Assembly: GCF_900101095.1 (NCBI RefSeq)
Contig: NZ_FNFM01000003.1
Location: 248,001 to 312,000, forward strand
Direction of reading: 5' to 3'
DNA from: Actinopolyspora mzabensis
GTDB taxonomy: Bacteria; Actinomycetota; Actinomycetes; Mycobacteriales; Pseudonocardiaceae
Length of the DNA stretch: 64,000 nucleotides
This document shows positions 1 through 63,127 of this stretch, one piece after another. The notes below the pieces were generated by a model that worked only from the letters and a program-made list of their open reading frames with translations, was not told the DNA's origin and searched no databases. The position numbers and the translations under genes are program-made. The stretch's first letter is position 1; each line of letters opens with the position of its first letter.

Positions 1-1
1 C

Positions 2-676
2 AGCGTCTATTCGGTGCGACGCTTCATAATGGATCAAGAACTGACCAAATCAATTCTTGATTTCTCCAGGATGATGCGGTGCTCGCCGTTCATGACGCTA
101 CTGGCGACCTTGAAGCTTTATCTGCACCGCAAGACATCATTCGACGACCTCGTGGTGCCGGTAATAACCTCCGGGCGCACTGAATCGTCCTTCCATGAAT
201 CCGTAGGGCCCTTTTTCAACATGGTCCCACTCCGCACGAGCATCGAGGGGTGTCGGAGCTTTTTCGACTTTATGTTGCGCGTTCGCGCGACGTGTCTGGA
301 AGGGTATTCCCACGAGCTTCCCTTCAGCGAGGTGGTCGCCCAGGCACCGGAGATCATCAGCACGTACGAACGCCCCGACAACGCGGTGGTGGCGATCCAG
401 GTGCTTCAGTTCCCCGCCATGACCGAATCCGAGGTTATAGGTGGCCTGGAGTACACAGAGGTTCGCAGAAGAACGAAATCGTACCCGGAGACCTCGGACA
501 TCCCGAACGGGATACTGCTGGGTATGGACATACTTCCCGACGACGAGATCGCGGGAACGCTGAGATTTGACAGCAATCAGTTTCACGACGAAACCATTAT
601 CGAAATGATCGATTCTTACAAGGATCTGCTCCGTTCGGTACTGATCGACCCCAACAGGCCCCTCGGGTCGCTGTGA
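2..676 (+). CDS. Stand-alone NRPS condensation enzyme, C-terminal part (SgcC5-like)
   Basis: The reading frame is open from the left edge and stops at 676, so only the C-terminal 224 residues are present. The segment PFFNMVPLR and the following PFSEVV are typical of the second half of condensation domains. The catalytic HHxxxDG motif lies upstream of the window. No adenylation or carrier domain follows, so the enzyme ends as a free-standing C protein, as SgcC5 does in C-1027 biosynthesis. That protein joins a carrier-bound beta-amino acid to the enediyne core. The stop overlaps the first possible start of the halogenase gene, implying one operon. The role is inferred from the family and from the neighbouring halogenase and the SgcC-like hydroxylase at 50601. 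The matching adenylation, carrier and aminomutase genes are not in this window. Confidence 0.82.
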   Translation, partial: SVYSVRRFIMDQELTKSILDFSRMMRCSPFMTLLATLKLYLHRKTSFDDLVVPVITSGRTESSFHESVGPFFNMVPLRTSIEGCRSFFDFMLRVRATCLEGYSHELPFSEVVAQAPEIISTYERPDNAVVAIQVLQFPAMTESEVIGGLEYTEVRRRTKSYPETSDIPNGILLGMDILPDDEIAGTLRFDSNQFHDETIIEMIDSYKDLLRSVLIDPNRPLGSL

Positions 677-699
677 CGAGCGGAGGAAGAGGGATTGCG

Positions 700-1923
700 G
701 TGAACGTGGCGAAGCCGTACTACGACGTCGTGACAGTGGGTGGCGGTCCAGCTGGATCGGCTACGGCTGCTTTGCTCGCGATGCGTGGGCACCGGGTGCT
801 TCTGCTGGAACGTGAGAAATTCCCCCGGTATCACATCGGGGAGTCGTTGATCACCGGAGCTCTGCCCACGCTCGAAGAACTGGGTTTGTTGTCCCGCATG
901 GATGCCATGGGGTTCACCAGAAAATACGGTGGCACACTGCTTTGGGGAAAGAACCAGGGCACATGGGGATTTCGCTTCGCCGAGTCCGCGTTGTACGACT
1001 ACGCTTACCAGGTCCACCGCGCGGACTTCGACGCTCTGCTGCTGGAACGCGCCCGTGAACTCGGTGTGTCGGTGGTGGAGGAGGCCACGGTCAAAGAACC
1101 CGTACTCGACGGGGAACGCGTCGTCGGTGTCGACTACGTCGACAGCGACGGACGGGACGTGACAGTGAACTGCCGGATGTTGCTCGACGCATCCGGGCAG
1201 CATCGCCTGATCGGACGACACTTCGATTTGGTCGAGTGGTACGACGATCTGCGCAACATCGCGATGTGGTCGTATTTTCAGGGTTGTAACCTGTACAGCG
1301 GGACAAGAGCAGGAGACATCGTATCGGAGAACCGCCCTTCGGGCTGGTTCTGGTTCATTCCGCTTGCTGACGGGACGTCCAGTGTCGGATACGTGACACC
1401 GATCGACGAGTACAAGTCCTCTGGACTGTCGCCGAAGAGCCTGTTCCTGCGTGAGTTGGAGAGTACGCAGGAGATCCGCAGTCTCACCGAATCGGCTCGT
1501 CGTGTCAGCGACTTTCGTGTAACTCGCGACTGGTCCTACACCTGTGACCGGTTCCACGGTCCTGGATGGGCGCTGGTCGGTGATGCGGCGGCATTCGTCG
1601 ATCCTCTGCTGTCGACGGGGGTCACGCTCGCGTTGCGCGGTGCCCGAGCACTCGCCGACGCCGTGCACGAGTCCGTAGCGGATCCCGGGGCCGAACAAGA
1701 AGCACTGGACCACTACGAGTCCAACTACAGGAAATTCCTGGAATCCATCCTGGAATTTGTCCGGTTCTTTTACGATCGTACCAAGCACAAGGAGGAATAC
1801 TGGGAAAAGGCTCAATCTACCATAGACCCCCAGAGACTTCGCCCGAGCGACATGGACTTCGCGACACTGTTGTCGGGATTGACCGGGATCAACGAAATAT
1901 TTCCCGATCGGCGTCCGATCTGA
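700..1923 (+). CDS. FAD-dependent halogenase (SgcC3-like)
   Basis: This 407-residue flavoprotein has an N-terminal FAD-binding GGGPAGSATA motif and the halogenase signature WFWFIP (WxWxIP) near residue 215. A second FAD segment, GDAAAFVDPLLSTG, lies near residue 290. This matches FADH2-dependent halogenases that chlorinate aromatic rings held on carrier proteins. In enediyne clusters the homologue SgcC3 chlorinates carrier-bound beta-tyrosine. GTG at 700 is preferred because a GGAGGAAGAGGG ribosome-binding site lies 6 bases upstream. An earlier GTG at 673 overlaps the previous stop. Reduced flavin could come from the reductase at 61415. The gene sits directly after the condensation enzyme, consistent with tailoring of the same tyrosine-derived unit. 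Confidence 0.88.
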   Translation: MNVAKPYYDVVTVGGGPAGSATAALLAMRGHRVLLLEREKFPRYHIGESLITGALPTLEELGLLSRMDAMGFTRKYGGTLLWGKNQGTWGFRFAESALYDYAYQVHRADFDALLLERARELGVSVVEEATVKEPVLDGERVVGVDYVDSDGRDVTVNCRMLLDASGQHRLIGRHFDLVEWYDDLRNIAMWSYFQGCNLYSGTRAGDIVSENRPSGWFWFIPLADGTSSVGYVTPIDEYKSSGLSPKSLFLRELESTQEIRSLTESARRVSDFRVTRDWSYTCDRFHGPGWALVGDAAAFVDPLLSTGVTLALRGARALADAVHESVADPGAEQEALDHYESNYRKFLESILEFVRFFYDRTKHKEEYWEKAQSTIDPQRLRPSDMDFATLLSGLTGINEIFPDRRPI

Positions 1924-1962
1924 CCAAGCGTTCTCGTGCTTCGGCAAACGGAAAGGAAAATC

Positions 1963-3051
1963 ATGGCACAAGCGAATCGCAGCCTCGTTTATCGCGGTGT
2001 GGCCTACGACACCGGTTCCAACCACGAGACAGGGCAGGGCTCCATCTCTCGAACCGTGTGGAGCAACGAGATCATGCGTCGCGAAATTGACGCTGTCAGG
2101 GACGAGCTCAACGCGAACTCGGTCACCATCTACGGCACGAGGTTCGACCGGTTGCGCGAAACCGTCGAAGCGGCGGTTTCGCGGGGCCTGCACGTGTGGT
2201 TGCAGCCGAGGTTGATGGACGGCACCCAGGAGCAGGTTCTGGAGCACTTGCAGGAAGCGGCGAAACTGGCGGAGTCGTTCCGGACCCGTGGTGCCGACAT
2301 CAGACTCACCGTGGGAAGTGTTCACTCGGTGCAGACCCACGGGATCATGCCCGGCGAGCACTACCACAACCGGATGGGCAACGTGTTCGCACACGCCGAT
2401 CACCACTTCCTGCGGCCGGCTGGTCCGGTCGACCAGGAGGATGTGACCACCAAGCTGAATGCTTTCCTGCGCAGGGCGGCCAAGGTGGCACGTGACCACT
2501 TCGGGGGTGAGATAACCTACTCCGCGGGGCCGTTCGAAGAGGTCGACTGGAGTCTGTTCGATTACATCGGGCTCACGTACTACTACTTCTACCACCCCAC
2601 CCGGGAGGGCTACGTCCAGGAGCTGGACGCGTACCGCAGGTGGAACAAGCCGATCGTGATCGCCGAGTACGGCACCTTCACGTACAAGGACGCCCACACC
2701 AAGGGGCTGCTCGGTTTCGACATCGTCGATCGATCCGAGGATCCACCGACCGTGTTCGACGGTTTCGTCCGCGACGAGCAGGCTCAAGCCGACTTCCACA
2801 CCGGGATGCTGCGAATGTTCGACGAGATCGGTATCCACAGCGTGGCGGTCACGGAGTTCATCCATCCGACGCATCCGCACTCGAGCGACCCCAAATACGA
2901 TCTGGATGCCGCGAGCATGGCAATCACCAAGTGCATTCGCGACGATTACTGGGACCACGACTCGACGTACCGTTTCGAGCCGAAGGAGTCACTCAGGGCG
3001 ATCGGACGATATTACGCCGACGTGGCCGCTCGGGAACGAGACGCGGCTTGA
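1963..3051 (+). CDS. TIM-barrel glycosidase-like protein of unknown role
   Basis: This 362-residue protein has no signal peptide. Its pattern suits a glycoside-hydrolase-type (beta/alpha)8 barrel: alternating strands and helices, a strand ending VWLQPRLMD, a strand DYIGLTYYYFY, and a late strand IVIAEYGTF whose Glu sits where GH-A clan enzymes carry the nucleophile. I do not recognise a characterised member. Similar soluble actinobacterial proteins are often labelled abortive-infection or hypothetical glycosidase without biochemical support. ATG 1963 follows an AAAGGA site by 6 bases. It lies between the halogenase and a hydrolase in the same direction, so a cluster role is plausible but unproven. 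A strong hairpin follows its stop. Confidence 0.6.
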   Translation: MAQANRSLVYRGVAYDTGSNHETGQGSISRTVWSNEIMRREIDAVRDELNANSVTIYGTRFDRLRETVEAAVSRGLHVWLQPRLMDGTQEQVLEHLQEAAKLAESFRTRGADIRLTVGSVHSVQTHGIMPGEHYHNRMGNVFAHADHHFLRPAGPVDQEDVTTKLNAFLRRAAKVARDHFGGEITYSAGPFEEVDWSLFDYIGLTYYYFYHPTREGYVQELDAYRRWNKPIVIAEYGTFTYKDAHTKGLLGFDIVDRSEDPPTVFDGFVRDEQAQADFHTGMLRMFDEIGIHSVAVTEFIHPTHPHSSDPKYDLDAASMAITKCIRDDYWDHDSTYRFEPKESLRAIGRYYADVAARERDAA

Positions 3052-3142: not shown

Positions 3143-4018
3143 ATGGGAACATCCGAAACTGGAGCGCTGGCCCTGTCCGGTGCGGAGCTGTACTACGAGA
3201 TACGCGGTGCCGGCCCGACACTTCTGATTGTACCCAGCGGTAACGGGGATGCGGCTCCTTTCACCCCGCTGGCAGAGACGTTGGCCGACAGATACACGGT
3301 GATCACCTACGACAGGCGTGGGTTCTCCCGCAGCCCTGTACACGGCCCTGTCCATGACGAGCACAGGCTCAAAACCGATGCGCAGGACATAGTCGAGCTC
3401 CTGACGCATCTCGGGCAGCGCCCTGCCCGCGTGTTCGGAAGCAGTTCCGGCGCGATCATCGCTCTGGCCCTGCTCGAGCTGTATCCCCGGGCCGTCCACA
3501 CCCTCATCGCCCATGAACCCCCACTGTCATCAGTGCTGCCCGATGCTCAACGCTGGGCAGCATTCCACGACGAGCTCTACGAAATCTTTCGGGCACGCGG
3601 TGTCGACGAGGCGAAACGAGTGTTCCGTGCCGCCATGGGCATGGACGAGGCCACCCGACCGCCGAAACGGACCCAGCCTCCGCCGCGCGAGTTGAGCAGG
3701 ATGCTCGACAGAATCCAGCGCAACCACGCGTTCTGGTTCGAGCACGAGTTGCGCACCTACCCCGCTTTCGAACCGAACCTGACTCTGCTGCGCGAGCACA
3801 GGGACCGGTTGGTGCTCGCGGGAAGCCGCACGGGAGCGCGGCAGTTCCCCTACCTTCCCAACCAGGAACTCAGCAGGCGAGTGGGAATCGGCATCCGACA
3901 TCTGCCGGGAGGACACGTGGGTTATGTGACTCATCCCGCCGAGTTCTCGGAGGAGCTCGCCGAAGTACTACTCGAGAAGGAAACGGACTCAGAGACGAGT
4001 CCCGCGGAACCAGGGTGA
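3143..4018 (+). CDS. Alpha/beta-hydrolase
   Basis: This 291-residue alpha/beta-hydrolase fold protein has an oxyanion region (IVPSGNGD), a YDRRGFSRS loop after strand 4, a nucleophile elbow GSSSG (GxSxG) near residue 100 and a C-terminal catalytic His in GGHVGYVTHP. The nucleophile is Ser, not the Asp of the enediyne epoxide hydrolase SgcF, so it is not a replacement for that enzyme. The substrate is unknown. Hydrolysis of an ester, thioester or lactone in the pathway, or a resistance function, is possible. ATG 3143 lies 10 bases after a GTGGAGGG site and 44 bases after a strong hairpin. A 186-base gap separates it from the sugar genes. Confidence 0.75.
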   Translation: MGTSETGALALSGAELYYEIRGAGPTLLIVPSGNGDAAPFTPLAETLADRYTVITYDRRGFSRSPVHGPVHDEHRLKTDAQDIVELLTHLGQRPARVFGSSSGAIIALALLELYPRAVHTLIAHEPPLSSVLPDAQRWAAFHDELYEIFRARGVDEAKRVFRAAMGMDEATRPPKRTQPPPRELSRMLDRIQRNHAFWFEHELRTYPAFEPNLTLLREHRDRLVLAGSRTGARQFPYLPNQELSRRVGIGIRHLPGGHVGYVTHPAEFSEELAEVLLEKETDSETSPAEPG

Positions 4019-4204: not shown

Positions 4205-5551
4205 ATGCGTTTTCTGCCCGACGACGATCATCCGAAAGTAGCGGTCATCGGTTTCGGTTACGTGGGATCGTGTATCGCCGCGACCCTCACCTCGCTCGGC
4301 TGCGAGGTGATCGGGGTGGACACCGACCCACTCCTCGTCGCGGAACTGGAACGCGGGTACTGTCGATTCCACGAGCGCGGACTCGCCGAAACGCTCTCGG
4401 CCGAGCGAATGTCAGGTCGGCTGCGAGTAACCGCGGACATGACGGCGGTCGGCGAGGCCGACGTCGTGTTGGTAACCGTCGGTACACCTGTTCACGAGGA
4501 CGGTTCGCTCGCCGACGAACAACTGAGTGGAGCCTGCCGGGAACTGGGTGACCAACTCGGCCGCGGACAACTCGTGATAGTCAAAAGCACCGTCCCCCCG
4601 GGAACCACCCGTCGTGTGGTGTGTCCGTTGTTGGAACGTTCGGGGATGACCGCGGAAATCGACTTCGGTCTCGCGTTCACTCCGGAACGCATCGCCGAGG
4701 GCACGGCGTTGCACGAACTACGCACGTTCCCGATAGTCACAGGGGGAATCGGACCGCACAGCGCGCGGGCCGCGGAGGCCTTCTGGGCTCGCTGTCTCGG
4801 CGTCGAAGTGAACGTTCTCGCTTCGTTGGAATCGGCGGAGATGCTGAAGCTTGCCACGAACTGGTGGATAGACCTCAACATCGCGTTCGCGAACGAACTG
4901 GCCAAAGTCTGCGCGCCGCACGACGTGGACGTGCTGGACGTGATCGACGCTGCCAACACGATCCCCAAGGGAAACGGCAAGGTCAACATCCTGCATCCCA
5001 GTGTCGGTGTGGGAGGCTCGTGTCTGACCAAGGACCCGTGGATGATCTCGCACTCGGCGAAGGAACACGGAATCGTGCTGCGGACGGCCTCGACAGGACG
5101 CGAGATCAACGCGGCCATGCCGGAACACACCGCACAGCTGGCCGTCGACGAGTTGCTCGCGATGGGCAAGGAGCCGGCCGAATGCAAAGTCGCCGTACTC
5201 GGCCTTGCCTTCAAGAACAACACGGGAGATCTCCGTGCGACGCCGACGGGGGATTTCGTCAAGGCTGTGCGCAAAGCAGGTGCGAATGTCGCGGTTTTCG
5301 ATCCGCTGGCCGACCCCGAACAGGTGAAGGAGTTGTTCGGCATCGCAGCCTCCATCGATCTCGACCGAGCCGTCAGGGACGCGGACTGCATCGCGATACT
5401 GGCACTGCACAACGAGTTCGAGCACATCGAATTCGCCGAGTTAAATGTGAGGGACTCCTGCGTCGTGCTGGACGGCAGGGCCTACTACAGCTCCGAAAAG
5501 ATCGCGGAACTCCGCGGGATGGGGTATGTCTACCGAGGGGTGGGACGCTAG
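4205..5551 (+). CDS. UDP-glucose 6-dehydrogenase
   Basis: This 448-residue nucleotide-sugar dehydrogenase has an N-terminal Rossmann motif GFGYVGS, STVPPGTTR, the middle-domain segment TPERIAEGT, and the catalytic-cysteine motif GGSCLTKD near residue 263. The C-terminal motif GLAFKNNTGDLR follows. It should oxidise the C6 of an NDP-hexose to the uronic acid. With the decarboxylase next door, UDP-glucose to UDP-glucuronate is the likely step, as for CalS8 or the maduropeptin sugar genes. ATG 4205 has GGGGAAG just upstream. Only the CTAG-type 1-base junction and the decarboxylase gene follow, so the two are co-transcribed. An N-acetylmannosamine-type substrate is less likely in this context. 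Confidence 0.87.
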   Translation: MRFLPDDDHPKVAVIGFGYVGSCIAATLTSLGCEVIGVDTDPLLVAELERGYCRFHERGLAETLSAERMSGRLRVTADMTAVGEADVVLVTVGTPVHEDGSLADEQLSGACRELGDQLGRGQLVIVKSTVPPGTTRRVVCPLLERSGMTAEIDFGLAFTPERIAEGTALHELRTFPIVTGGIGPHSARAAEAFWARCLGVEVNVLASLESAEMLKLATNWWIDLNIAFANELAKVCAPHDVDVLDVIDAANTIPKGNGKVNILHPSVGVGGSCLTKDPWMISHSAKEHGIVLRTASTGREINAAMPEHTAQLAVDELLAMGKEPAECKVAVLGLAFKNNTGDLRATPTGDFVKAVRKAGANVAVFDPLADPEQVKELFGIAASIDLDRAVRDADCIAILALHNEFEHIEFAELNVRDSCVVLDGRAYYSSEKIAELRGMGYVYRGVGR

Positions 5552-6562
5552 GTGAACTCGCACGGCAGCACGAATTCCACTCCCCGCAAGGTACTTGTGA
5601 CAGGGGGGTCGGGATTTGTCGGTGGACATCTCGTCGAAAGACTGATCGAGCGGGGAGACGAGGTCACGGTTTTCGACACCGCGCCACCTCCGGGACCGCT
5701 CGCCTCCGAAAACGCTAAGTACGTCAGGGGGGACATCCGGGACGAGACGGAGCTGGCAAGGGTGATCCGTTCCAACGTCGATGTGATCTACCATCTGGCA
5801 GCAGTCGTCGGGGTCGACAGGTACCTCAGCGATCCCACCGCGGTCATCGACACCAACTTCTCGGGAACCCGCAACGTCCTGGATCTGGCGACACGCGCTG
5901 GAGCAAAGGTGGTGCTGGCCAGCACCAGCGAGGTATTCGGGAAGAACTCCTCGGTACCTTGGCGCGAGGACAGTGATCGGGTACTCGGGCCGAGCTCCGC
6001 GGCACGCTGGTCCTATGCCACCGGGAAAGCACTCGCGGAACATCTCGCGTTCTCGTACCGGGATCAGCACGGACTCGAGTTGACTGTTGTTAGATATTTC
6101 AACGCTTACGGCCCCGGGCAGCGTCCCGCATATCTCGTGAGCCGATCAGTGCACCGAGCTCTCAACGGCCGCGCGCCAGTGATCTACGACGGTGGAGGGC
6201 AGACGCGCTGCTTCACCTTCGTGCAGGACGTAGTCGAAGGCACGGTACTGGCCGGAACACGAACCGATGTCGCAGGTGAGTCGTTCAACATCGGTTCCGG
6301 TACGGAAACCACGATCGCACGAGCCGTTCGGCTGATAGGCGAACTGACGGGGGCGAACACAGAACCGTTGGACGTGGACACCGGTAGTGTCCTGGGTGAT
6401 TCCTACGAGGACCTGCCACGACGGGTTCCAGACAGCACGAAGGCAAGGCAGATGCTCGGATGGTCCGAGCGCACTTCGCTGCGGGAGGGGCTGCGCAGGA
6501 CCATCGAGTGGGCACGCGCTAGTCCGTGGTGGCTCGCGCTTCCGGAAGGCGGTGCTGGATGA
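5552..6562 (+). CDS. UDP-glucuronate decarboxylase-like epimerase/dehydratase
   Basis: This 336-residue extended short-chain dehydrogenase has a GGSGFVGGHL NAD site at residue 17 and a YATGK (YxxxK) catalytic pair near residue 152. The size and the YFNAYGPGQRP loop fit the UDP-glucuronate decarboxylase and UDP-glucose 4-epimerase families. Next to a UDP-glucose dehydrogenase, decarboxylation of UDP-glucuronate to a 4-keto-pentose or UDP-xylose is the best reading, as for CalS9. The GTG start at 5552 immediately follows the dehydrogenase stop, with GAGGGG upstream. The product would feed the C-methyltransferase and the PLP aminotransferase beyond. Confidence 0.82.
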   Translation: MNSHGSTNSTPRKVLVTGGSGFVGGHLVERLIERGDEVTVFDTAPPPGPLASENAKYVRGDIRDETELARVIRSNVDVIYHLAAVVGVDRYLSDPTAVIDTNFSGTRNVLDLATRAGAKVVLASTSEVFGKNSSVPWREDSDRVLGPSSAARWSYATGKALAEHLAFSYRDQHGLELTVVRYFNAYGPGQRPAYLVSRSVHRALNGRAPVIYDGGGQTRCFTFVQDVVEGTVLAGTRTDVAGESFNIGSGTETTIARAVRLIGELTGANTEPLDVDTGSVLGDSYEDLPRRVPDSTKARQMLGWSERTSLREGLRRTIEWARASPWWLALPEGGAG

Positions 6563-6611
6563 GCCCCAACCCCACGACGAAAACGAGAACGGACTGCGAG
6601 GTGTGGTGCGG

Positions 6612-7832: not shown

Positions 7833-7845
7833 CACCAAGGTAGTC

Positions 7846-7881
7846 CGTTCACGGCCACGACGTCCGCCGCGGCCGTGAACG
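7846..7881. terminator. Bidirectional terminator between convergent genes
   Basis: The 11-base arms CGTTCACGGCC (7846-7856) and GGCCGTGAACG (7871-7881) form a stem with a 14-base loop. They lie between the convergent C-methyltransferase and aminotransferase genes. Confidence 0.75.
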
Positions 7882-7905
7882 TGTGTCTGTTCGGTGCCTG
7901 CGGGG

Positions 7906-9069: not shown

Positions 9070-9307
9070 GGAGCGCTCCTTCGGTACAGGTTCCGGTCCG
9101 AGGACCATGGTGCTCGCCTAAGACCAGGTCCGACAGGAAATCGATGAACTAAGCAGGATCCGATAAGAGGAAGGCGAACCTGTTCTCCCGCGTGCGATAC
9201 CGCATTTTCGGAGGTGCTGTTCCGAGGTTTCGTGAAGCATCGTCACCAACGGCAGCTGGTACCGCGCCCGTGGGCGGAACGAACCGTACCACCGATGAGG
9301 AGACTCG
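9070..9307. promoter_or_regulatory. Divergent promoter region
   Basis: This 238-base gap separates the divergent aminotransferase (minus) and O-methyltransferase (plus) genes, so it must hold promoters for both. No clear operator repeat was found by eye. Confidence 0.5.
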
Positions 9308-33615: not shown

Positions 33616-33626
33616 TTGGAGGAACG

Positions 33627-49903: not shown

Positions 49904-50569
49904 ATGAGTACGTTCCGCCTGGACGAGAAGCTGAGTAGCTACGTCGTCGGTTCGTGCACGCCCCCGGAAGAAGCCGTGTCCAATCTGATTCGGCGCACCA
50001 TGGCGCTCGGCGACGCGGCGGAGATGATGATTCCCGTCGAGCAGGCCGGTTTCCTGACGATGCTCACCCGGGTCTCCTCCGCGCGCAGGGTGATCGACGT
50101 GGGTACATTCACGGGTCTGTCCGCTCTGGCGTTCGCCCGGGGACTCGGCGAAGACGGAAAAGTCGTCACCTGCGACGTCACCGACGAATGGCTGTCGATC
50201 GCGTCCGAGCACTGGCGGTTGGCCGGCATCGACGATCGCATCGACTTCCGATGCGGCCCGGCGAAACGCACGTTGGAGGAGCTCGAGAACGAGGAAGCCG
50301 CGGACATCGTCTTCCTGGACGCGGATAAGACGTCCTATCCGCGTTACTGCGAGGCGGCGGCCCGGTTGCTGGCTTCGGGAGGGTTGCTGATCCTCGACAA
50401 CGTGTTGCTGCACGGAACAGTGGTGGATCCCGGAAACGCCGAGGACGAGCTGGGCCAGTATGCCGCGGAGATCATGGATTCGGTCAGTGCGCGGCTCGCC
50501 GCGGACGAACGTTTCGACACGGTGATGCTACCCATCGCCGACGGGATGACCATCGCCCGCAAAAAGTAA
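49904..50569 (+). CDS. Cation-dependent O-methyltransferase (caffeoyl-CoA type)
   Basis: This 221-residue class I methyltransferase is of the caffeoyl-CoA/catechol O-methyltransferase family. The SAM motif is [16 protein letters not shown] near residue 66. A metal-binding [15 protein letters not shown] lies near residue 137, with [11 protein letters not shown] near residue 165. Such enzymes methylate one hydroxyl of a catechol, which is what the next gene (SgcC-like hydroxylase) would create. SgcD4 and the maduropeptin cluster have corresponding steps. ATG 49904 has GGAGGA 6 bases upstream. The hydroxylase starts 31 bases after its stop. Confidence 0.88.
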
Positions 50570-53581: not shown

Positions 53582-53663
53582 TTTCCATGATCGACAGCCC
53601 GAAACACATCGCCATCCACCGCCCCTGCCGATCACTCACTCCCGGTACCGGCAGGTGGTCAGG

Positions 53664-55130: not shown

Positions 55131-58100
55131 ATGGGAAGCGAACGGATCGCGATCGTCGGAATCGGTCTCTGTTACCCCGACGCCGAATCTCCGGATGAAC
55201 TCTGGGAGAACGTGCTAGCCGGAAGGCGAGCCTTCCGGCGGATACCCGACGAACGTTTAAATCGCAGCGATTACTGGTCACCGGCCCCCGAAGCGCCGGA
55301 TCGGTTCTACACGGAGTACGCCGCCGTGCTACGTGATTTCGAGTTCGATCGCGTGCACTACAAAGTGGCGGGAAGTACCTACCGCGCCACGGACCTAACG
55401 CACTGGCTCGCACTCGAGGTGACAGCACGGGCGCTGAGGGATGCGGGGTTCGGAAACGGATCGGGGCTGCCACGTGAATCGACCGGAGTCGTACTGGGCA
55501 ACAGCCTGACCGGTGAGTTCTCGCGAGCTGCCAACACCCTGCGGCTGAGGTGGCCCTACGTCCGTCGGACCGTCGCGGACTCGTTGACCTCGAAAGGCTG
55601 GGACGACCACGAGATCGCTGATCTCCTCCGAGACCTCGAAGAGCGCTACAAGGCTCCGTTCCCCGCGATCAACGAGGACTCTCTCGCCGGGGGGCTCTCG
55701 AACACGATCGCGGGAAGAATCTGCAACCACTTCGACCTGCACGGTGGTGGCTACACCGTGGACGGAGCTTGCTCCTCCTCCTTGCTCTCCGTGGCAACCG
55801 GAGCCAATGCCCTGGTCGAGGGCGACCTGGACGTCGTGCTCGCCGGCGGAGTAGATCTCTCCATCGATCCGTTCGAGATGATCGGCTTCGCCAAAACCGG
55901 CGCGCTCGCCAGCAACGAGATGAAGGTCTACGACCGTGACTCCAACGGTTTCTGGCCTGGTGAGGGGTCGGGCGTGCTCGTTCTCATGCGCCATCGGGAC
56001 GCCCTGGCGCGCGGGTGTCGGATCTACGCATCGATAACGGGCTGGGGAGTGTCCTCCGACGGCAAGGGCGGCATCACCCGTCCGGAAGCGGCGGGACATC
56101 GACTCGCACTGCGGCGCGCTTACCAACGAGCCGGTTACGGCCCCGGAACGGTTGGCTATTTCGAGGGTCACGGCACAGGTACAGCGGTCGGCGACGCCAC
56201 CGAGATCGAAGCGTTGTCCTCGGCACGCGACGAGGACGATCCCACCGCGGCACCCGCGGCACTGAGCACGATCAAGGGCAACTTCGGACACACCAAGGCC
56301 GCCGCGGGAGCAGCAGGACTGATCAAGGCGAGTCTCGCCGTGTTTCACCAGGTGATCCCCCCGGCCACCGGACACCGGAACGCTCATTCGGCCCTGCACG
56401 GCGACTCCTCGGTATACGTGCCGAGCGAGGTGGGGACATGGACCGCGGGGGCTCCGGTACGCGCTGGCGTATCAGCCATGGGATTCGGGGGCATCAACAC
56501 GCACGTCACCTTGGAGGGAGAAGCCGGAGTACGACGTGTCGCTTCTCCTGATCTCCGGACATCGCGTGCGGTCACCGGTAGGCAGGATCGCGAGATCCTG
56601 ATGTTCGATGCGGAAACTCGCGACGAGCTGCGAGAACGAGTCGCGCGATGTGCTCGGCTGGCGACACGGCTTTCGTACGCGGAAGTTGCGGACATGGCTG
56701 CCGAACTCTCGCGGGAGCTGTCGGGAGGTCCACAACGCGCCGCCGCTGTCGTTTCCGGACCCGACGATGCCGCACGAGCGCTCGACAGGTTGCGAGAGGC
56801 ACTCGACAACGGCGCGGAGAGTTCATTCGACCAGCGCGAGGGGGTCTTTCTCGGAAACAGCGAGACAGAACCCCGCATCACGTACCTATTTCCCGGTCAA
56901 GGAACCGGTGGCGGTACTGCCGGAGCGCTGAGACGACGCTTCCCGGAAGCGGAGTCCGTCTTCGCCACCGCAGATCTGCCAGCGGCACAGGACAATGTGG
57001 CGACCGAGGTCGCGCAGCCGCTCATCGTGACGAACTCACTCGCCGGGCTGCGCGTGCTGCACAAGCTCGGGATCGAAGCGGACGGGGCGGTCGGACACAG
57101 CCTCGGGGAGCTGACGGCTCTGCACTGGGGCGGAGCCTTGGACCAGCAGCAGCTGGTCCGGCTGGCGACGATTCGTGGCGCGGTCATGGCCGCTGAGAGC
57201 CAGGCCGAGGGGACGATGGCGGGACTGTCCTGCTCACCGAAGGAGGCACAACGTTTCCTCATCGGCACGAACGTCGTCATCGCGGGGTACAACGGGCCAC
57301 GACAAACCGTTCTCGCAGGCGGCACGAACGAGATCGAGGAAGTGTGCGCGACCGCTGCCGCACGAGGGGTGCAGACGAGCAGCCTCAACGTCTCACACGC
57401 GTTCCACTCACCACTGGTCGAACCCGCTGCCGCCGTGCTCGACGACCGGCTGGCTCATTTCGAGTTCCTCGAACCACGCGGAACAGTCTTCTCGACCGTT
57501 ACCGGTGAGAGGCTGCGTCCCGGGCAGGATTTGCGCCGATTGCTGCGGGAACAGATCACCAGCCCGGTGCGGTTCCAACAAGCAGTCGAACAGGGCTCGC
57601 ACAACTGCGATCTGCTCATCGAGGTCGGCCCGGGCAGAGTGCTGGGCACTCTGGCTCGAGAGATCGCACCGAACACCGAGACAGTGTCGATGAGTACCGA
57701 CAGCGACTCGCTGTCCGGTCTTCTCGGCGTTGTCGCCGCGGCCTTCGTATGCGGACAGCAGGTGAACACCGCCGCATTGTTCGAAGACCGTGTGGTTCGC
57801 CCGCTGTCGATCGATTCCGATCCGGAGTTCCTGACGAACCCATGCGAGCTTGTACAGGAGCTGCCCGACGGGTTGGTCGACCGTGAACCTGCGAGAACCG
57901 AGCGGGACGAGCAGGACAGCCACACCAGGACGAGTACCACCCCGGGTGCCCCACCGGGTGAGATGACCGAGCCAGGAGGAACTCTCCAGCTGCTTCGTGA
58001 ACTGGCCGCCGAACGTGCCGAACTGCCGTTGGAAGCGATCGGTACCGACACTCATCCGCTGGATGATCTGCATTTGAGCTCCATCACCGTCGGACAGCTG

Positions 58101-60959
58101 GTCAACGAGGTGGCCAGGGCAACGGACAGGTCCCTCGTCGAATCGGTGCCGAGCTTCGCCACGGCACGGTTGGGCGAACTGGCCGAGATGATCGACGGCA
58201 TCGCCGAATCCGCGGCGGACGGCGACCGCCCAGCCGTGGGTGAGGTCTCCGGAGTGGCGTCCTGGGTCACTCCCTTCGCCGTTGAGTATGTGGACGAGCC
58301 CGCTCCGGCGCCGGGGGGCGTCGGCGAACCGGGGGAGTGGACGGTCTTCACCACCGAGAACCATCCGCTCGCGAAACCGCTGGAACGCGCACTCAGCTCT
58401 GCGAACGTCGGGGCCGGCGTCTTGCTGTGCCTGCCTCCCGACTGCGATGAGCAACATGTCGAACTGTTCCTGGCGGCAGCACGCGCCACGACGAACGGCA
58501 CTCGATTCGTGGTGGTGCAGCAGGGACTCGGGGCATCCGGGATGGCCAAGACCCTGGTGCTGGAACACCCCTCGATCAAGACCACGATCGTGGAACTCGC
58601 CGACGTCACCTCGGCGGGAGACATCGACACCCACGTGGACCAGGTAGTGCGAGAGGTCGCCGCCACCACGGAATTCGCAGAAGTCAGTTACGACTCCGCC
58701 GGAAGACGTCGGGTGCCGGAACTGATCGCGGTAACCGACTCCGAGCCCCACGAGCAGCTACTACTCGACGAGACGGACGTCCTGCTGGTAACCGGTGGCG
58801 GTAAGGGAATCACCGCCGAATGCGCACTTGCCGCGGCGAAGGATTCCGGTGCACGGCTCGCGCTGGTCGGACGCGCCGAACCGGAGCAGGACGCTGATCT
58901 CACCGCCAATCTGAAGCGACTGACCGAGGCCGGGGTCGAGTACCGCTACCAGCGCGCCGATGTGAGTGACGAAGAACAGGTCCGTGCTGCTGTCGGTGAA
59001 CTCCAGCAGGAACTCGGTCCGGTGACAGCAGTCATGCACGGAGCGGGGTACAACGCGCCCGCAGCACTCTCCACGCTCACCGGGGAGGAATTCCGGAAAG
59101 CCCTGCTTCCCAAGGTGCGAGGGCTGGAGTCGGTGCTGCGAACTGTCGGGACGAGCGGCCTCAAACTGTTGGTCACCTTTGGCAGCATCATCGGACGAGC
59201 GGGGCTGCGTGGCGAAGCTCACTACGCGACGGCGAACGACTGGATGAGTGAGCTGACTCGACGTTTCCAGGCGGAGAATCCGCATGTTCGTGCGATCGCG
59301 ATGGAGTGGTCCGTGTGGTCGGGCACCGGGATGGGTGAACGTCTCGGCGTCGTCGAAGGACTCAGCCAAACAGGAATCACCCCGGTGTCGACACGGGACG
59401 GCATCGATCTGTTGCGGCGCGCGTTGAACAGTTCGCCGACGAATCCGGTTATGGTGATCTGTGGCCGGATGGGCGGCATGAGCACGTTGCCGATACGGAG
59501 ACCAGAGCTCCCGCTGACGCGGTTCGTGGAGCGGATCGCGGTGCATTATCCGGGTGTCGAGCTCATCACCGAGGCGGACCTGTCGAGCAACAACGATCCG
59601 TATCTACGTGATCACGAACTGGACGGCCAGTTTCTGTTTCCCGCCGTGCTCGGCGTGGAGGCGATGACGCAGGTCGCCGCGGCACTCGCGGGACGTACCG
59701 ACGCGCCACTCCTGGAAGGAGTCGAGTTCCTGCGCCCGGTCGTGGTCACCCCGACGGACACGAACACGATTCGCGTCGCTGCACTCGTGCGGGATCCCGG
59801 CACAGTCGATGTGGTCCTGCGAACTTCGGAGACCGGATTCGGGGCCGATCATTTCCGTGCTCGGGTACGTTTTCCCAGCCCGAGTATCCCAGCTGCAGCC
59901 GTCGAACCACGACCGGAGCTACCGCTTGTCGCCGTGGATCCGGCCTCGGAGCTCTATGGTGGATTGCTGTTCCAGGGCAAACGCTTCCAACGGTTGCTCG
60001 GATACCATCGCTCGGCAGCCAGGCATGCCGTGGCGGATATCGACACGCGTGGCGAGAGCTCCTGGTTCGCACCGTTCCTGCCGCAGGAACTGCTGCTGGG
60101 TGATCCGGGGACGAGGGACACGCTGATGCACGCGCTCCAGTGTTGCGTCCCCGACGCGACGCTGCTTCCCGAACGTGTCGAACGGCTCTACCCCGCGGGT
60201 CAGATCGACCAGGACTCCGGACCACTCGTGCTCGACGCGAGCGAGCTATTTCAGGACGGCGACAGCTACGTCTACGACCTGATGGTCCGCACCACGTCCG
60301 GCAAGGCAGTGGAACGATGGGAGGGACTGAGACTCCGCGCCGTCCGCAGGAACGACGGCCGCGGCCCCTGGGTGCCACCCATGCTGGGGCCGTATCTCGA
60401 GCGCTTCCTCGAGAATGTGCTGGGTGGCAACCGCGCGATCGTGGTGGAACCGGACCCGGAGGAATCGTCACACCCCGACGTCCGCAGGCGGTCGCAAACC
60501 GAGCTTGCCGTGAGTCGTGCACTCGGTCGCCCGGTCCGGTTGAACCACAGACCGGACGGCAGACCGGAGGTTCCGGACGCCGAGGTATCCGCCTCGCACG
60601 GTGCGGGGCTGACGCTTGCTGCGGTGAGCTCCGAGCCGGTCGGGTGCGACGTCGAACAGGTCGTGGAACGAACGGTCGATGACTGGACCGGTCTCCTCGG
60701 TCCCGGCTTGATGGGGCTTCATGACCTGGTGACGCGCGAATGCGCAGAACCTCCCGCGGTAGCCGGCACTCGGATATGGAGCGCACTGGAATGCCTGCGA
60801 AAGAACGGCTCGATGACGAAAGCACTTGTGCTCGAACGGGTACACACGCCCGAGTGGGTGCTGTTTTCGGCGGGTGGATCCCGAATAGCCACCTTCGTGA
60901 CGAACGTCGAGGGCCGCGAAGGTCCGGTAGTGTTCGCTTTCCTGGAAGGCAGAGAATGA
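55131..60959 (+). CDS. pksE: Iterative enediyne polyketide synthase PKSE (KS-AT-ACP-KR-DH-PPTase)
   Basis: The 1942 residues carry the full enediyne PKS domain order. KS (about 1-450) has Cys214 in DGACSSS, EGHGTGT and KGNFGHTKAA. AT (about 590-870) has Ser657 in GHSLGE. ACP (about 950-1030) has DDLHLSSI, with Ser984 as the likely pantetheine site. KR (about 1210-1440) has TGGGKGITAE and the Ser and Tyr of GSIIGRAGLRGEAHYATAND. DH (about 1480-1700) has DHELDGQFLFP. A C-terminal phosphopantetheinyl transferase follows (GCDVEQV, WSALECLRKNG). The enzyme builds the linear polyene precursor from malonyl-CoA. ATG 55131 has GGAAGG 7 bases upstream. The stop overlaps the thioesterase start. Confidence 0.97.
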   Translation: MGSERIAIVGIGLCYPDAESPDELWENVLAGRRAFRRIPDERLNRSDYWSPAPEAPDRFYTEYAAVLRDFEFDRVHYKVAGSTYRATDLTHWLALEVTARALRDAGFGNGSGLPRESTGVVLGNSLTGEFSRAANTLRLRWPYVRRTVADSLTSKGWDDHEIADLLRDLEERYKAPFPAINEDSLAGGLSNTIAGRICNHFDLHGGGYTVDGACSSSLLSVATGANALVEGDLDVVLAGGVDLSIDPFEMIGFAKTGALASNEMKVYDRDSNGFWPGEGSGVLVLMRHRDALARGCRIYASITGWGVSSDGKGGITRPEAAGHRLALRRAYQRAGYGPGTVGYFEGHGTGTAVGDATEIEALSSARDEDDPTAAPAALSTIKGNFGHTKAAAGAAGLIKASLAVFHQVIPPATGHRNAHSALHGDSSVYVPSEVGTWTAGAPVRAGVSAMGFGGINTHVTLEGEAGVRRVASPDLRTSRAVTGRQDREILMFDAETRDELRERVARCARLATRLSYAEVADMAAELSRELSGGPQRAAAVVSGPDDAARALDRLREALDNGAESSFDQREGVFLGNSETEPRITYLFPGQGTGGGTAGALRRRFPEAESVFATADLPAAQDNVATEVAQPLIVTNSLAGLRVLHKLGIEADGAVGHSLGELTALHWGGALDQQQLVRLATIRGAVMAAESQAEGTMAGLSCSPKEAQRFLIGTNVVIAGYNGPRQTVLAGGTNEIEEVCATAAARGVQTSSLNVSHAFHSPLVEPAAAVLDDRLAHFEFLEPRGTVFSTVTGERLRPGQDLRRLLREQITSPVRFQQAVEQGSHNCDLLIEVGPGRVLGTLAREIAPNTETVSMSTDSDSLSGLLGVVAAAFVCGQQVNTAALFEDRVVRPLSIDSDPEFLTNPCELVQELPDGLVDREPARTERDEQDSHTRTSTTPGAPPGEMTEPGGTLQLLRELAAERAELPLEAIGTDTHPLDDLHLSSITVGQLVNEVARATDRSLVESVPSFATARLGELAEMIDGIAESAADGDRPAVGEVSGVASWVTPFAVEYVDEPAPAPGGVGEPGEWTVFTTENHPLAKPLERALSSANVGAGVLLCLPPDCDEQHVELFLAAARATTNGTRFVVVQQGLGASGMAKTLVLEHPSIKTTIVELADVTSAGDIDTHVDQVVREVAATTEFAEVSYDSAGRRRVPELIAVTDSEPHEQLLLDETDVLLVTGGGKGITAECALAAAKDSGARLALVGRAEPEQDADLTANLKRLTEAGVEYRYQRADVSDEEQVRAAVGELQQELGPVTAVMHGAGYNAPAALSTLTGEEFRKALLPKVRGLESVLRTVGTSGLKLLVTFGSIIGRAGLRGEAHYATANDWMSELTRRFQAENPHVRAIAMEWSVWSGTGMGERLGVVEGLSQTGITPVSTRDGIDLLRRALNSSPTNPVMVICGRMGGMSTLPIRRPELPLTRFVERIAVHYPGVELITEADLSSNNDPYLRDHELDGQFLFPAVLGVEAMTQVAAALAGRTDAPLLEGVEFLRPVVVTPTDTNTIRVAALVRDPGTVDVVLRTSETGFGADHFRARVRFPSPSIPAAAVEPRPELPLVAVDPASELYGGLLFQGKRFQRLLGYHRSAARHAVADIDTRGESSWFAPFLPQELLLGDPGTRDTLMHALQCCVPDATLLPERVERLYPAGQIDQDSGPLVLDASELFQDGDSYVYDLMVRTTSGKAVERWEGLRLRAVRRNDGRGPWVPPMLGPYLERFLENVLGGNRAIVVEPDPEESSHPDVRRRSQTELAVSRALGRPVRLNHRPDGRPEVPDAEVSASHGAGLTLAAVSSEPVGCDVEQVVERTVDDWTGLLGPGLMGLHDLVTRECAEPPAVAGTRIWSALECLRKNGSMTKALVLERVHTPEWVLFSAGGSRIATFVTNVEGREGPVVFAFLEGRE

Positions 60960-61390
60960 ATAAGTCGGACTACTACGAGATCAGGCACGTCATTGGATTC
61001 GAGGAAACCAACCTGGTCGGCAATGTATACTATGTGAATTACCTGCGCTGGCAGGGTCGGTGCCGCGAGATGTTCCTCCGGGAGAAGGCTCCGGGGCTTC
61101 TTGCGGAACTACGTGACGACCTGAAGCTCTTCACGCTCAAAACCGAGTGCGAGTTCTTCGCCGAAATCACCGCTTTCGAAGAGCTCTCCATACGCATGCA
61201 GCTCGAGGAGATAACCCAGACACAGATACAGTTCGTTTTCGACTACGTAAGGCTCGGAGAGGTGAACGAGAGCCTCGTGGCCAGGGGGCGGCAACGCATC
61301 GCCTGCATGCGTGGCCCGAATTCGAACACTGTTCCCACACGCGTTCCCGCCGAGCTGCGGGCGGCTCTCACCTCCTATGAAGCGCCCTGA
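60956..61390 (+). CDS. E10: Enediyne hotdog thioesterase (E10/TEBC)
   Basis: This 144-residue single hotdog domain of the 4HBT class matches CalE7/SgcE10. The start is YYEIRHVIGFEETNLVGNVY followed by NYLRWQGRCREMFL, the part that forms the active-site helix in this family, and FFAEITAFEELSIRMQLEEI follows. It releases the polyene (heptaene or a keto-acid) from PKSE. The ATGA overlap with PKSE ensures coupled translation. This PKSE-TE pair is the minimal enediyne unit. Confidence 0.95.
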   Translation: MNKSDYYEIRHVIGFEETNLVGNVYYVNYLRWQGRCREMFLREKAPGLLAELRDDLKLFTLKTECEFFAEITAFEELSIRMQLEEITQTQIQFVFDYVRLGEVNESLVARGRQRIACMRGPNSNTVPTRVPAELRAALTSYEAP

Positions 61391-61414: not shown

Positions 61415-61993
61415 ATGTTCAGCGAGAATCACGCACCGACCGGGCGAGACGTGCGGATCACGCCGACTTCGCCGCATCCCCGCTCCAGGGATGATCCGAC
61501 TTCGCTGCGTGCCGTGATGTCCCGCTTCGCCACGGGTGTCACCGTGCTGACCGCGGGCGGAAGCAGGGCGCACGGAATGACGGCAAACTCCTTCAACTCC
61601 GTATCGCTCGACCCGCCGTTGGTGCTGTGCTGCGTATCCCGGACGGCCAGAATGCACGCCAGCATAGCAGCCTCCTGCTCGTTCGGTGTATCCGTGCTGG
61701 CCGACGATCAACGGGAACTGGCCCGGTACTTCGCTGACAGGACGAGGCCGGCCGGATGGCGGCAGTTCGAAGGTGTGGGGTGGAAGGACGGCCCGTTCAC
61801 CGGGGCTCCACTGCTCGACGGTTCACTGGCCTGGCTGGAATGCGAGTTGGCCGATGTCCACGAGGCAGGGGACCACTCCATATTCCTCGGTAGCGTACTC
61901 GGTTCAGGTTGTGGCGCGGACTCCGGTGCTCTCCTTTTCTGCGGCGGAGATTACTACGACATAAAGACGAAGAGGCGAGAGGAAAAACGATGA
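61415..61993 (+). CDS. E6: Flavin reductase (enediyne E6-like)
   Basis: This 192-residue protein is of the flavin reductase-like (HpaC/SgcE6) family. VMSRFATGVTVLTAGG is followed by GMTANSFNSVSLDPPLVLCCV, the flavin-binding core, then FGVSVLADDQRELARYFADR and the C-terminal GDHSIFLGSVL with FCGGDYYD. In C-1027 SgcE6 supplies reduced FAD to the SgcC hydroxylase and the SgcC3 halogenase. Counterparts of both are in this window, and the acyl-CoA-dehydrogenase-type monooxygenase may also depend on it. ATG 61415 has GGAGTGG upstream. The TGA overlaps the next small gene. Confidence 0.9.
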   Translation: MFSENHAPTGRDVRITPTSPHPRSRDDPTSLRAVMSRFATGVTVLTAGGSRAHGMTANSFNSVSLDPPLVLCCVSRTARMHASIAASCSFGVSVLADDQRELARYFADRTRPAGWRQFEGVGWKDGPFTGAPLLDGSLAWLECELADVHEAGDHSIFLGSVLGSGCGADSGALLFCGGDYYDIKTKRREEKR

Positions 61994-62166: not shown

Positions 62167-62177
62167 GTGGCGGTCCC

Positions 62178-62279
62178 GTGTACGTCCGGTGGACTTGTCC
62201 CGATGAACGAGTGATCACCGGTGTGAAGGAGGCCATCCGCGAGGAGCCCGGAGCAAGCAGTCACCTGGAGCAACGATGA
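62178..62279 (+). CDS. Possible 33-residue peptide gene
   Basis: GTG 62178 opens a 33-codon frame with a product starting MYVRWTCPDER and ending SSHLEQR. Its TGA overlaps the start of the next small ORF (ATGA). The ribosome-binding site is weak. Only the overlapping junction supports it. It could also be the tail of a frameshifted longer gene. Confidence 0.3.
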   Translation: MYVRWTCPDERVITGVKEAIREEPGASSHLEQR

Positions 62280-62422
62280 ACGATCGAGACCAGTCCGCTG
62301 AGGAGACAGCCCCACATTGCGGGAGAAGTTGTTCGTACGATGCGGACTGCACTGCAGCATCCGAGGTATGTCCAGCGTGGGGAGAGGTGACCGAATCGCA
62401 TATCGTACTGGGATACGATTGA
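62276..62422 (+). CDS. Possible small cysteine-containing protein (48 aa)
   Basis: ATG 62276 has GGAG 6 bases upstream and opens a 48-codon frame. The product is acidic with four cysteines (HCGRSC, DADC, EVCPAW) and ends VLGYD. Position after the chain PKSE, E10, E6, 58-aa gene and the ATGA junction argue for expression. The cysteine spacing suggests a metal site or disulfides, but no family is recognised. Confidence 0.4.
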   Translation: MNDRDQSAEETAPHCGRSCSYDADCTAASEVCPAWGEVTESHIVLGYD

Positions 62423-62521
62423 GAGCCCGATCGTCGTCTGCGCCGCGTGTTCCCGCTCCACCGGTGCGGTCTGGGAGGACCGCCGGATCTGCTCGCTCCC
62501 GCGTCTCTCCTTGCCAGGAGA

Positions 62522-63127
62522 TCAGAGCCATTCCGAGTCGGTCGCGATGCGAACCGCGTGCAAACGGTTGCGTGCGTTGAGCTTGGTGACCGCTGCGGTG
62601 AGGTAGTTGCGCACGGTTCCCGCGGACAGATACAGCGAGGCGGCGATCTCGCCTGGGTCGTGCCCAGCGGAGGTCAACCGAAGAATTTGCAGTTCCCGTT
62701 GAGTCAAGGGGCACTCCTCGGTGTCCCATGCCTTCAGCGCCAACTCGGTTTCGATCGCTCGTCTTCCAACCGCGACCTCGCGCACCGAGGTCGCGAGTTT
62801 GTCCGCAGGAGCGTCCTTGAGCATGAAACCGTCGACGTGGTTGGCCAGGGCACGACGAATGGTCGCGGGCGTACCCAGGTTCGTCAGTATGAGAGTTCGG
62901 CAGTCGGGCAGTTCGGAGTGCAGCTCGGTGGCGACGGTGATGCCGTCCTTGCCGGGAAGGCTGATGTCGAGGATGGCCACGTCGGGACAGTGTTGTTTCG
63001 CCTGGGGCATGATCTCGTCACCGGTGGCGACCTCGGCGGCGACTTCGATGTCGGGTTCGAGACTCAGCAGCACTCCGAGCGCTCCACGTACCATGTGCAT
63101 ATCCTCGGCTAGCAGCACTCTGATCAA
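62522..63127 (-). CDS. Orphan NarL/LuxR-type response regulator
   Basis: The 201 residues form a receiver domain (about 1-115) with the acidic pair Glu8/Asp9, phospho-acceptor Asp54 in AILDISLPG, Thr82 and Lys104 (FMLKDAP). A LuxR-type HTH (about 137-198; LTQRELQILRLTSAGHDPGEIA and GTVRNYLTAAVTKL) follows. All phosphorylation residues are kept. No kinase gene adjoins it. The NarX/DesK-type kinase at 37683, which has no partner beside it, is a natural candidate. It faces the PKSE operon convergently. Confidence 0.92.
   Translation of the reverse strand: MIRVLLAEDMHMVRGALGVLLSLEPDIEVAAEVATGDEIMPQAKQHCPDVAILDISLPGKDGITVATELHSELPDCRTLILTNLGTPATIRRALANHVDGFMLKDAPADKLATSVREVAVGRRAIETELALKAWDTEECPLTQRELQILRLTSAGHDPGEIAASLYLSAGTVRNYLTAAVTKLNARNRLHAVRIATDSEWL

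Follow-up and report, generated by a model that had tools for sequence, protein, structure and literature searches.

Gene content of the enediyne locus

We analyzed a 64,000-nucleotide stretch of DNA from the salt-loving bacterium Actinopolyspora mzabensis (hereafter called the window; positions 248001–312000 of its contig, in a genome of 5.0 Mb) that carries a gene cluster predicted to specify an enediyne natural product. Coordinates follow window numbering, wherein negative values lie to the left of the window, and strands are given as plus or minus. Genes were called across 164 kb around the window by using a codon-usage model, 60 proteins from the cluster and its flanks were scanned against Pfam, and 20 scans were performed with NCBIfam. 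The cluster spans from the E2 gene (-6796) to a response regulator gene (63118), with approximately 6.8 kb residing outside the window on the left, and the pathway occupies approximately 60 kb once a Tn3-family element is subtracted. The G+C content of the cluster is approximately 0.60–0.65 (transposon excluded), compared with 0.66–0.68 for the farther flanks. In a comparison of a 1.5-kb piece of rpoB DNA from this genome, the identity was 98% for Actinopolyspora righensis and 84–90% for eight other genera or species, which places the host in Actinopolyspora.

The core of the locus includes an enediyne polyketide synthase (PKSE; 1942 aa, 55131–60959, plus), followed on the same strand by an E10 thioesterase (60956–61390) and an E6 flavin reductase (61517–61993). 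The minus strand encodes E3 UnbL (25108–26088; DUF1702, PF08012 E 2.2e-121), E4 UnbV (23153–25111; PF07593/PF13517), E5 UnbU (22160–23146; PF03116, with 48–78% identical homologues beside PKSEs), the cytochrome P450 E7 (20784–22163; PF00067), E8 (20170–20733; DUF5987, PF19449 E 4.5e-81), and the GMC oxidoreductase E9 (18548–20173; PF00732/PF05199). Adjoining these are minus-strand genes for an E11-type AhpD-like protein (17534–18478), whose homologues adjoin many PKSEs, and for an acyl-CoA-dehydrogenase-like flavin monooxygenase (16182–17516; PF08028) that NCBIfam finds HsaA-like, below cut-off. E2, a second DUF1702 gene (-6796 to -5819, minus), lies outside the window but within the cluster and is a 53–58% match to the DUF1702 gene that adjoins E3 in several PKSE loci. 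A P450 and zinc alcohol dehydrogenase pair (52358–54680, plus) precedes the PKSE gene.

A neocarzinostatin-family apoprotein, the predicted chromophore carrier, is encoded inside the cluster (45379–45816, minus; PF00960 E 9.7e-18), as expected for a chromoprotein enediyne, and its best match in the PDB is the C-1027 apoprotein (E 7.4e-15). A gene for a major facilitator superfamily (MFS) exporter is located nearby (46157–47752, minus). These strong profile matches bear out an initial annotation of the window that had listed PKSE, E10, UnbL/V/U, E6–E9, and a neocarzinostatin-type apoprotein.

According to PMC5181780, clusters for 9-membered enediynes carry an E3/E4/E5/E/E10 cassette, and E2 is exclusive to such clusters and is used to call them. 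The locus holds both the cassette and E2, the latter by family match rather than by the E-value cut of that study, and the presence of E2 thus supports the 9-membered call. Among the 70 PKSE loci that we found, the closest PKSEs are 63–64% identical to that of the window, which is far below the 90% identity that serves as a clade-grouping threshold in PMC5181780. When 10 Actinopolyspora genomes were examined, this PKSE was present in the source genome only, with a 64% identical relative in one other. Overall, these family assignments support a 9-membered chromoprotein enediyne cluster that is related to that for maduropeptin.

A putative hydroxymandelate branch

The initial annotation had proposed an SgcC/SgcC3/SgcC5-type tyrosine branch, and the hydroxylase, halogenase, and condensation enzyme on which that proposal rested are all present. 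The SgcC5-type condensation enzyme (-703 to 676, plus; only its 3′ part, 1–676, is inside the window) has the SgcC5 entry 4znm as its best PDB match (E 4e-106). It is followed by an SgcC3-type flavin-dependent halogenase (700–1923, plus; PF04820 E 3.6e-40) with 67–69% identical homologues in Amycolatopsis and Saccharopolyspora clusters. Approximately 49 kb beyond these two genes, the P450 and alcohol dehydrogenase pair is accompanied by genes for a catechol-type O-methyltransferase (49904–50569, plus; PF01596 E 3.7e-53; MdpC6 role) and an HpaB-type ring hydroxylase (50601–52145, plus; PF11794/PF03241; SgcC/MdpC role).

It had also been suggested that adenylation, carrier, and aminomutase genes should be sought to the left of the window. 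The first two functions are indeed encoded there, fused as an adenylation–peptidyl carrier protein (A-PCP) didomain (-3827 to -2100, plus). Rather than an aminomutase, the flank encodes a flavoprotein monooxygenase-like protein (-5435 to -4029, plus) and a dioxygenase of the hydroxymandelate synthase (HmaS) type (-1823 to -756, plus), whose gene is positioned between those for the A-PCP and the SgcC5-type enzyme.

The best PDB match of the dioxygenase is 7yvv (2.6e-137), followed by the Amycolatopsis orientalis HmaS 2r5v (6.7e-91), and 4-hydroxyphenylpyruvate dioxygenases (HPPDs) such as 1t47 (4.6e-56) rank lower. The identity of its sequence is 61% with 7yvv and 47% with 2r5v, compared with 36–39% for four HPPD-like relatives from other genomes. 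It shares the TLVEP/TLIEP motif with the HmaS group, and the four HPPDs carry PLNEP at the same place. By this sequence comparison, the protein groups with HmaS rather than with HPPD. An AlphaFold2 model of an HmaS homologue made without an alignment had a mean pLDDT of 33.8, which is too low for a fold search.

We sought HmaS in the genomes of 50 of the 70 PKSE loci (49 genomes, hand-picked, with look-alike Amycolatopsis clusters dropped). HmaS together with A-PCP was present in nine other PKSE clusters, those of Amycolatopsis sp. 2-2, A. rifamycinica, A. bullii, Amycolatopsis sp. MtRt-6, Actinopolyspora righensis, Saccharopolyspora indica, Streptomyces novaecaesareae, Kitasatospora sp. GP82, and an Actinophytocola metagenome-assembled genome (MAG), and the HmaS and PKSE genes share a contig in eight of these. 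Nine places and four further regions were mapped, and the HmaS matches of Saccharothrix sp. ST-888 and others fall outside the mapped set. The HmaS proteins of Saccharothrix yanglingensis and Actinoalloteichus caeruleus were not counted because they are encoded outside PKSE clusters (the latter 0.9 Mb away). The dioxygenase gene adjoins the A-PCP gene in all nine of the mapped HmaS-linked enediyne clusters.

The A domain of the didomain carries Asn (AFNVSTYEIW) at the position where LgrA has the Asp of FDGS. This Asp, which binds the amino group of the substrate, corresponds to GrsA D235. Its loss is as expected for an A domain that accepts an alpha-hydroxy acid, and the same position is occupied by Asn (six) or Gly (three) in the A-PCPs of the nine other HmaS-linked enediyne clusters. 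The remaining 20 of the 29 tblastn rows from the mapped clusters comprise 18 with Asp and two with Pro; both Pro rows are CoA ligases, and one of the 18 Asp rows, a match of merely 26.5%, is also CoA-ligase-like. C-1027 and clusters of the beta-tyrosine kind, such as the PKSE cluster of Haloechinothrix halophila, resemble the cluster studied here in having an SgcC5-type enzyme, a C-1027-like apoprotein, and HpaB, but differ in having a tyrosine 2,3-aminomutase (in H. halophila, TIGR03832 at 922.6 bits versus a cut-off of 501) and A domains with Asp. Both H. halophila A domains keep this residue, and a third, CoA-ligase-like row has Gly.

A whole-genome PF00221 search for an aminomutase in the source genome recovered only one gene, which is hutH on another contig (C18): it passes the hutH cut-off (629.5 versus 539) and fails the tyrosine mutase cut-off (367 versus 501). 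A 73% identical homologue beside a PKSE in Amycolatopsis arida was considered as an aminomutase candidate and rejected, as it is likewise hutH. Given the absence of an aminomutase and the presence of an HmaS-type dioxygenase in the flank, the unit is most likely a mandelate and not the C9 beta-tyrosine-derived acid of maduropeptin. Furthermore, the 60 proteins scanned with Pfam include no recognizable alpha-hydroxyacid oxidase, and therefore the mandelate probably enters the product without further oxidation. The most likely product of the tyrosine branch, judging from its genes, is a chlorinated, hydroxylated, and O-methylated mandelate ester, for which ring decoration by HpaB, the halogenase, and the O-methyltransferase is proposed by analogy with the mdp branch as described in PMC10951976.

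An aromatic polyketide synthase without a ketoreductase domain

The window also encodes an iterative aromatic polyketide synthase (PKS; 1284 aa, 10403–14257, plus). It has the domain order ketosynthase–acyltransferase–dehydratase/product template–acyl carrier protein (KS-AT-DH/PT-ACP). In line with the initial annotation, no ketoreductase (KR) domain is detected in it by Pfam. The adjacent genes encode an aryl methyltransferase (9308–10354, plus; PF00891; MdpB1 role) and an acyl-CoA ligase (14254–15903, plus; PF00501 E 4.3e-75; MdpB2 role). The methyltransferase matches SibL (1.8e-52) far better than the NcsB1-type entry 3i53 (1.8e-14) or CalO6 (7.5e-13). We take SibL to be a C-methyltransferase, which would agree with the role of MdpB1.

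The PKSs of the corresponding cassettes in Amycolatopsis sp. 2-2, A. rifamycinica, and Actinoalloteichus caeruleus do contain a KR (PF08659; E 4.6e-57, 1.1e-55, and 4.8e-59, respectively). The DH/PT region of the window PKS has the AviM PT domain 7vwk as its best PDB match (6.4e-34; the next is at 8.1e-06), and the His and Asp that form the catalytic dyad of the AviM PT domain, according to PMC9135731, are matched in the alignment by the same residues in the window PKS. The enzyme thus shares with the orsellinate synthases AviM and CalO5 (PMC9135731) the KS-AT-PT-ACP order, the aligned dyad, and the absence of a KR, but its PT/DH region is not part of the AviM group.

A tree of 20 DH/PT domains splits AviM and the KR-less Actinophytocola MAG PKS from the rest at 100/100 and places the window domain with those of KR-bearing enzymes, where it has a long branch and no close relatives; AviM is the sole named orsellinic acid synthase (OSAS) domain in this tree, and more OSAS sequences could shift the window domain. 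Because the sibling PKSs carry a KR and because of this tree, we prefer a loss of the KR within a salicylate/naphthoate-type lineage, independent of AviM, as the better reading of the sequences. The DH/PT-ACP piece was matched in 42 of 297 family genomes (its own included), and matches running through to the ACP were obtained at three places in two genomes, the window aside. By this sequence survey, bacterial KR-less relatives are rare.

The initial annotation had inferred an orsellinate-derived acyl group. Orsellinate remains plausible as the simplest product of a PKS with this domain composition, but a plain orsellinate synthase is not supported, as the PT/DH region stands apart from that of AviM.

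Aminopentose genes

The proposed pentose C-methyl/amino branch is confirmed at the level of Pfam families by the genes at 4205–9108. These encode an NDP-glucose dehydrogenase (4205–5551, plus; PF03721/PF00984/PF03720; MdpA2 role), an NDP-glucuronate decarboxylase-type epimerase/dehydratase (5597–6562, plus; PF01370; MdpA3 role), a sugar C-methyltransferase (6552–7832, plus; PF08484/PF08421/PF13489; MdpA4 role), and a DegT/StrS aminotransferase (7906–9108, minus; PF01041 E 2.5e-84; MdpA5 role). An EryCIII-like glycosyltransferase (MdpA6 role) is encoded separately (48075–49529, minus). The steps given for mdpA2–A6 in PMC10951976 are thus matched by family, from the dehydrogenase and the decarboxylase-type enzyme through the C-methyltransferase and the aminotransferase to the glycosyltransferase, as expected for an mdp-type aminopentose.

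Relatives of the cluster

Homologues (coverage of at least 0.4) were sought for 42 query proteins, representing all cluster genes except those of the transposon. All 42 have homologues in Amycolatopsis sp. 2-2 (NZ_CP127173.1), of which 40 lie within 80 kb and the other two, the kinase and response regulator, within the next 20 kb on the left. All 42 likewise have homologues in A. rifamycinica DSM 46095, on two contigs that were linked because their ends agree with the gene arrangement in Amycolatopsis sp. 2-2. The recurrence of the full set in each of two genomes indicates that it is not a chance assembly. It also overturns the initial impression that this combination of building blocks is unrecognized elsewhere, as only the domain make-up of the PKS differs. 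Both siblings share the apoprotein, HmaS, the fused A-PCP, and the aminopentose genes, and gene order is kept in several blocks. They differ in the KR of the aromatic PKS, in overall gene order and strands, in a second copy of a short-chain dehydrogenase/reductase (SDR) gene, and in a PKSE of approximately 60% identity. By sequence, the KR-less PKS sets the window apart from the Amycolatopsis siblings, and the rest of the gene set is shared. Note that the aromatic PKS of Amycolatopsis sp. 2-2 (L172:2893–8293) is in two frames and the PKSE match is in two pieces, reflecting either sequencing error or decay.

The HmaS protein of Amycolatopsis sp. 2-2 and PDB chain 7yvv share 95% identity. This chain is probably AcmP1, an R-4-hydroxymandelate synthase, and the acm designation would fit amycolamycin. 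If 7yvv is AcmP1, then the amycolamycin (acm) cluster already provides a precedent for the mandelate branch. We consider both Amycolatopsis siblings likely to be of the published amycolamycin type. Amycolamycins A and B are described in PMC10381858 as cycloaromatized 9-membered enediynes from an Amycolatopsis. Among the literature matches joining enediynes and hydroxymandelate, as far as their available text extends, no mandelate enediyne is described, and the 2017 amycolamycin paper is outside this coverage.

The maduropeptin (mdp) cluster of Actinomadura madurae ATCC 39144 (PMC10951976) resembles the window by family description in its aminopentose genes A2–A6, its B, B1, and B2 genes, and its hydroxylase, O-methyltransferase, halogenase, and condensation enzyme. 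Three differences separate the two. The KR-bearing MdpB makes 6-methylsalicylate (PMC10951976), whereas the window PKS has no KR; HmaS stands in place of the aminomutase MdpC4 and the transaminase MdpC7 found in that account; and the A and PCP domains are fused in the window. A maduropeptin-like product, as initially put forward, is supported for the 9-membered chromoprotein and the aminopentose but not for the aromatic ester.

Two further relatives were noted. In the Actinophytocola MAG, a PKSE is accompanied by HmaS and A-PCP, by a pair of halogenase-like genes, and by two pieces of KR-less aromatic PKS, of which one or both belong to the AviM branch; its 59-kb contig yields no match to the sugar genes or apoprotein. 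Actinopolyspora righensis has a different HmaS-type 9-membered enediyne cluster (PKSE 63%), with no apoprotein match in the stretch mapped.

Proposed pathway and alternative explanations

The gene content, the HmaS-type clade of the dioxygenase, the loss of the A-domain Asp, and the absence of a KR from the PKS and of an aminomutase from the genome are direct observations, and the chemical steps are proposed from them. We consider it probable that the locus is a complete cluster for a 9-membered chromoprotein enediyne, of the maduropeptin/amycolamycin kind, and that its product carries an ester of the mandelate type together with an aminopentose bearing an unreduced aromatic acyl group. PKSE and E10 would form a polyene that the E proteins convert to the 9-membered core, as is known for these families. 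Following the mdp pathway, UDP-glucose would be oxidized, decarboxylated, C-methylated, and aminated to give a 4-amino-3-C-methylpentose, which the glycosyltransferase would attach. The KR-less PKS would produce an unreduced aromatic acid, most simply orsellinate, that is probably C-methylated by the SibL-like methyltransferase and activated by the CoA ligase, and the sugar would be N-acylated by a further enzyme. The HmaS-type dioxygenase would convert tyrosine-derived 4-hydroxyphenylpyruvate to 4-hydroxymandelate, which the A-PCP would load; HpaB, the halogenase, and the O-methyltransferase would decorate its ring; and the SgcC5-type enzyme would esterify it to the core. The apoprotein and the MFS exporter would carry and export the chromophore. 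A more specific version, that a chlorinated mandelate ester is combined with a C-methylated orsellinate on the aminopentose, and that the orsellinate PKS arose from a salicylate/naphthoate-type synthase by clean loss of the KR with the rest of the cluster remaining as in the Amycolatopsis siblings, is put forward tentatively, as a reading somewhat less likely than not.

Several observations weigh against this proposal. Neither a nucleotidyltransferase (MdpA1 role) nor an acyltransferase (MdpB3 role) was identified among the scanned proteins. The orsellinate assignment relies on KR absence and domain order, since the PT/DH region does not group with the AviM PT domain, and the unreduced product could also be shorter or longer. 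The placement of the window PKS in the KS tree is not settled, and its branches are long in both the KS and DH/PT trees. In addition, NCBIfam places the dioxygenase above its HPPD cut-off (329.5 versus 277), in a scan that had no HmaS-specific model. This label would suit a true maduropeptin-type product, with a C9 3-aryl-3-hydroxypropionate derived from beta-tyrosine as the aromatic ester and with an HPPD that makes homogentisate as the dioxygenase, and the SgcC-, C3-, C5-, and C6-type genes do fit the mdp branch in PMC10951976. We nevertheless regard such a product as very unlikely, as the genome is without an aminomutase, the A domain is without the Asp that the aminomutase-type cluster keeps, and the dioxygenase is HmaS-like in sequence and encoded between the A-PCP and C5 genes, a linkage to A-PCP that recurs throughout the HmaS-linked clusters.

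The origin of the aromatic PKS could also be otherwise. A classical AviM/CalO5-type orsellinate synthase might have been recruited whole into an amycolamycin-like cluster, given that AviM has the same domain order and length and provides the best PDB match of the DH/PT region, and that the acyl cassette is less similar to that of Amycolatopsis sp. 2-2 (methyltransferase 55%, PKS 46–58%, CoA ligase 48%) than are most neighboring genes (54–78%). The clean separation of the AviM PT domain and the Actinophytocola PKS from the window enzyme in the DH/PT tree, with its one named OSAS domain, speaks against recruitment, and the KS tree does not decide the matter; we judge this origin rather unlikely. 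It is more improbable still that only a relic remains, decayed or silent, of a cluster broken by insertion of a Tn3-family transposon between the AraC and kinase/SARP regulatory genes. This 9.7-kb element does separate regulators without a 5-bp target duplication, and it could have cut regulation, which counts as a further point against the main proposal. However, all of the pathway frames examined are open, including those of the PKSE and the aromatic PKS, and none of the 42 proteins shared with the siblings is missing or cut by the element.

Tn3-family element and other genes

The transposon (9740 bp, 27795–37534) is not part of the pathway. It is bounded by 39-bp inverted ends that are 95% complementary, occurs as a single copy in the genome, and carries a frame-broken transposase gene, genes for a resolvase, two MFS proteins, a rhodanese, a metallo-beta-lactamase (MBL)–rhodanese, and an ArsR–rhodanese, and an IS5-like fragment. 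The bases at its ends (GGGAC left, CCGAG right) form no 5-bp target duplication, and a small rearrangement is therefore possible. The MBL–rhodanese, ArsR–rhodanese, and MFS cargo is sulfur-related.

To the left of the element is the AraC-type regulator gene (26427–27248, minus), and to its right are genes for a histidine kinase (minus) and a SARP regulator (plus) at 37683–40459. These are followed by the SDR oxidoreductase gene (40587–41369, minus), which has two copies (69–72%) in each Amycolatopsis sibling, and by a sigma factor–SnoaL fusion (minus) and three SnoaL-like genes (minus, plus, plus) at 41477–44742. This SnoaL set was found again beside PKSEs in eight to nine of the 70 loci. A LuxR-type response regulator gene (62522–63118, minus) probably marks the right edge of the cluster.

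Two plus-strand genes separate the halogenase gene from the aminopentose genes. One encodes an alpha/beta hydrolase (3143–4018; PF00561). The other is a conserved gene (1963–3051) with a weak glycosidase-like match below the Pfam cut-off and with homologues in four other enediyne clusters at 69, 68, 60, and 49%; its product could be a candidate for the missing acyltransferase step or could be sugar-related. Approximately 5 kb left of the cluster (L007:2233–2985, where the window position equals the L007 position minus 14000), another gene matches the NPP1 (necrosis-inducing-protein-like) family, by family match only.

Implications

By the count of the authors who described jejucarboside, 9-membered enediynes comprise fewer than ten families (PMC10381858). 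The present analysis offers a sharper product prediction and not a new enediyne class: both side groups that we predict, a hydroxymandelate and an aromatic acid left unreduced, depart from the textbook examples. The combination of HmaS with an A domain that is without the Asp provides a simple sequence rule for predicting the aromatic ester, distinguishing a mandelate from a beta-tyrosine branch, and the hydroxymandelate branch appears in at least nine other PKSE clusters among the 49 genomes searched. The comparison of the KR-less PKS with its KR-bearing siblings represents a natural experiment on the loss of a KR and its effect on the product of an iterative aromatic PKS. If the proposal is correct, a natural domain deletion would have respecified one building block while leaving the remainder of the cluster unchanged.

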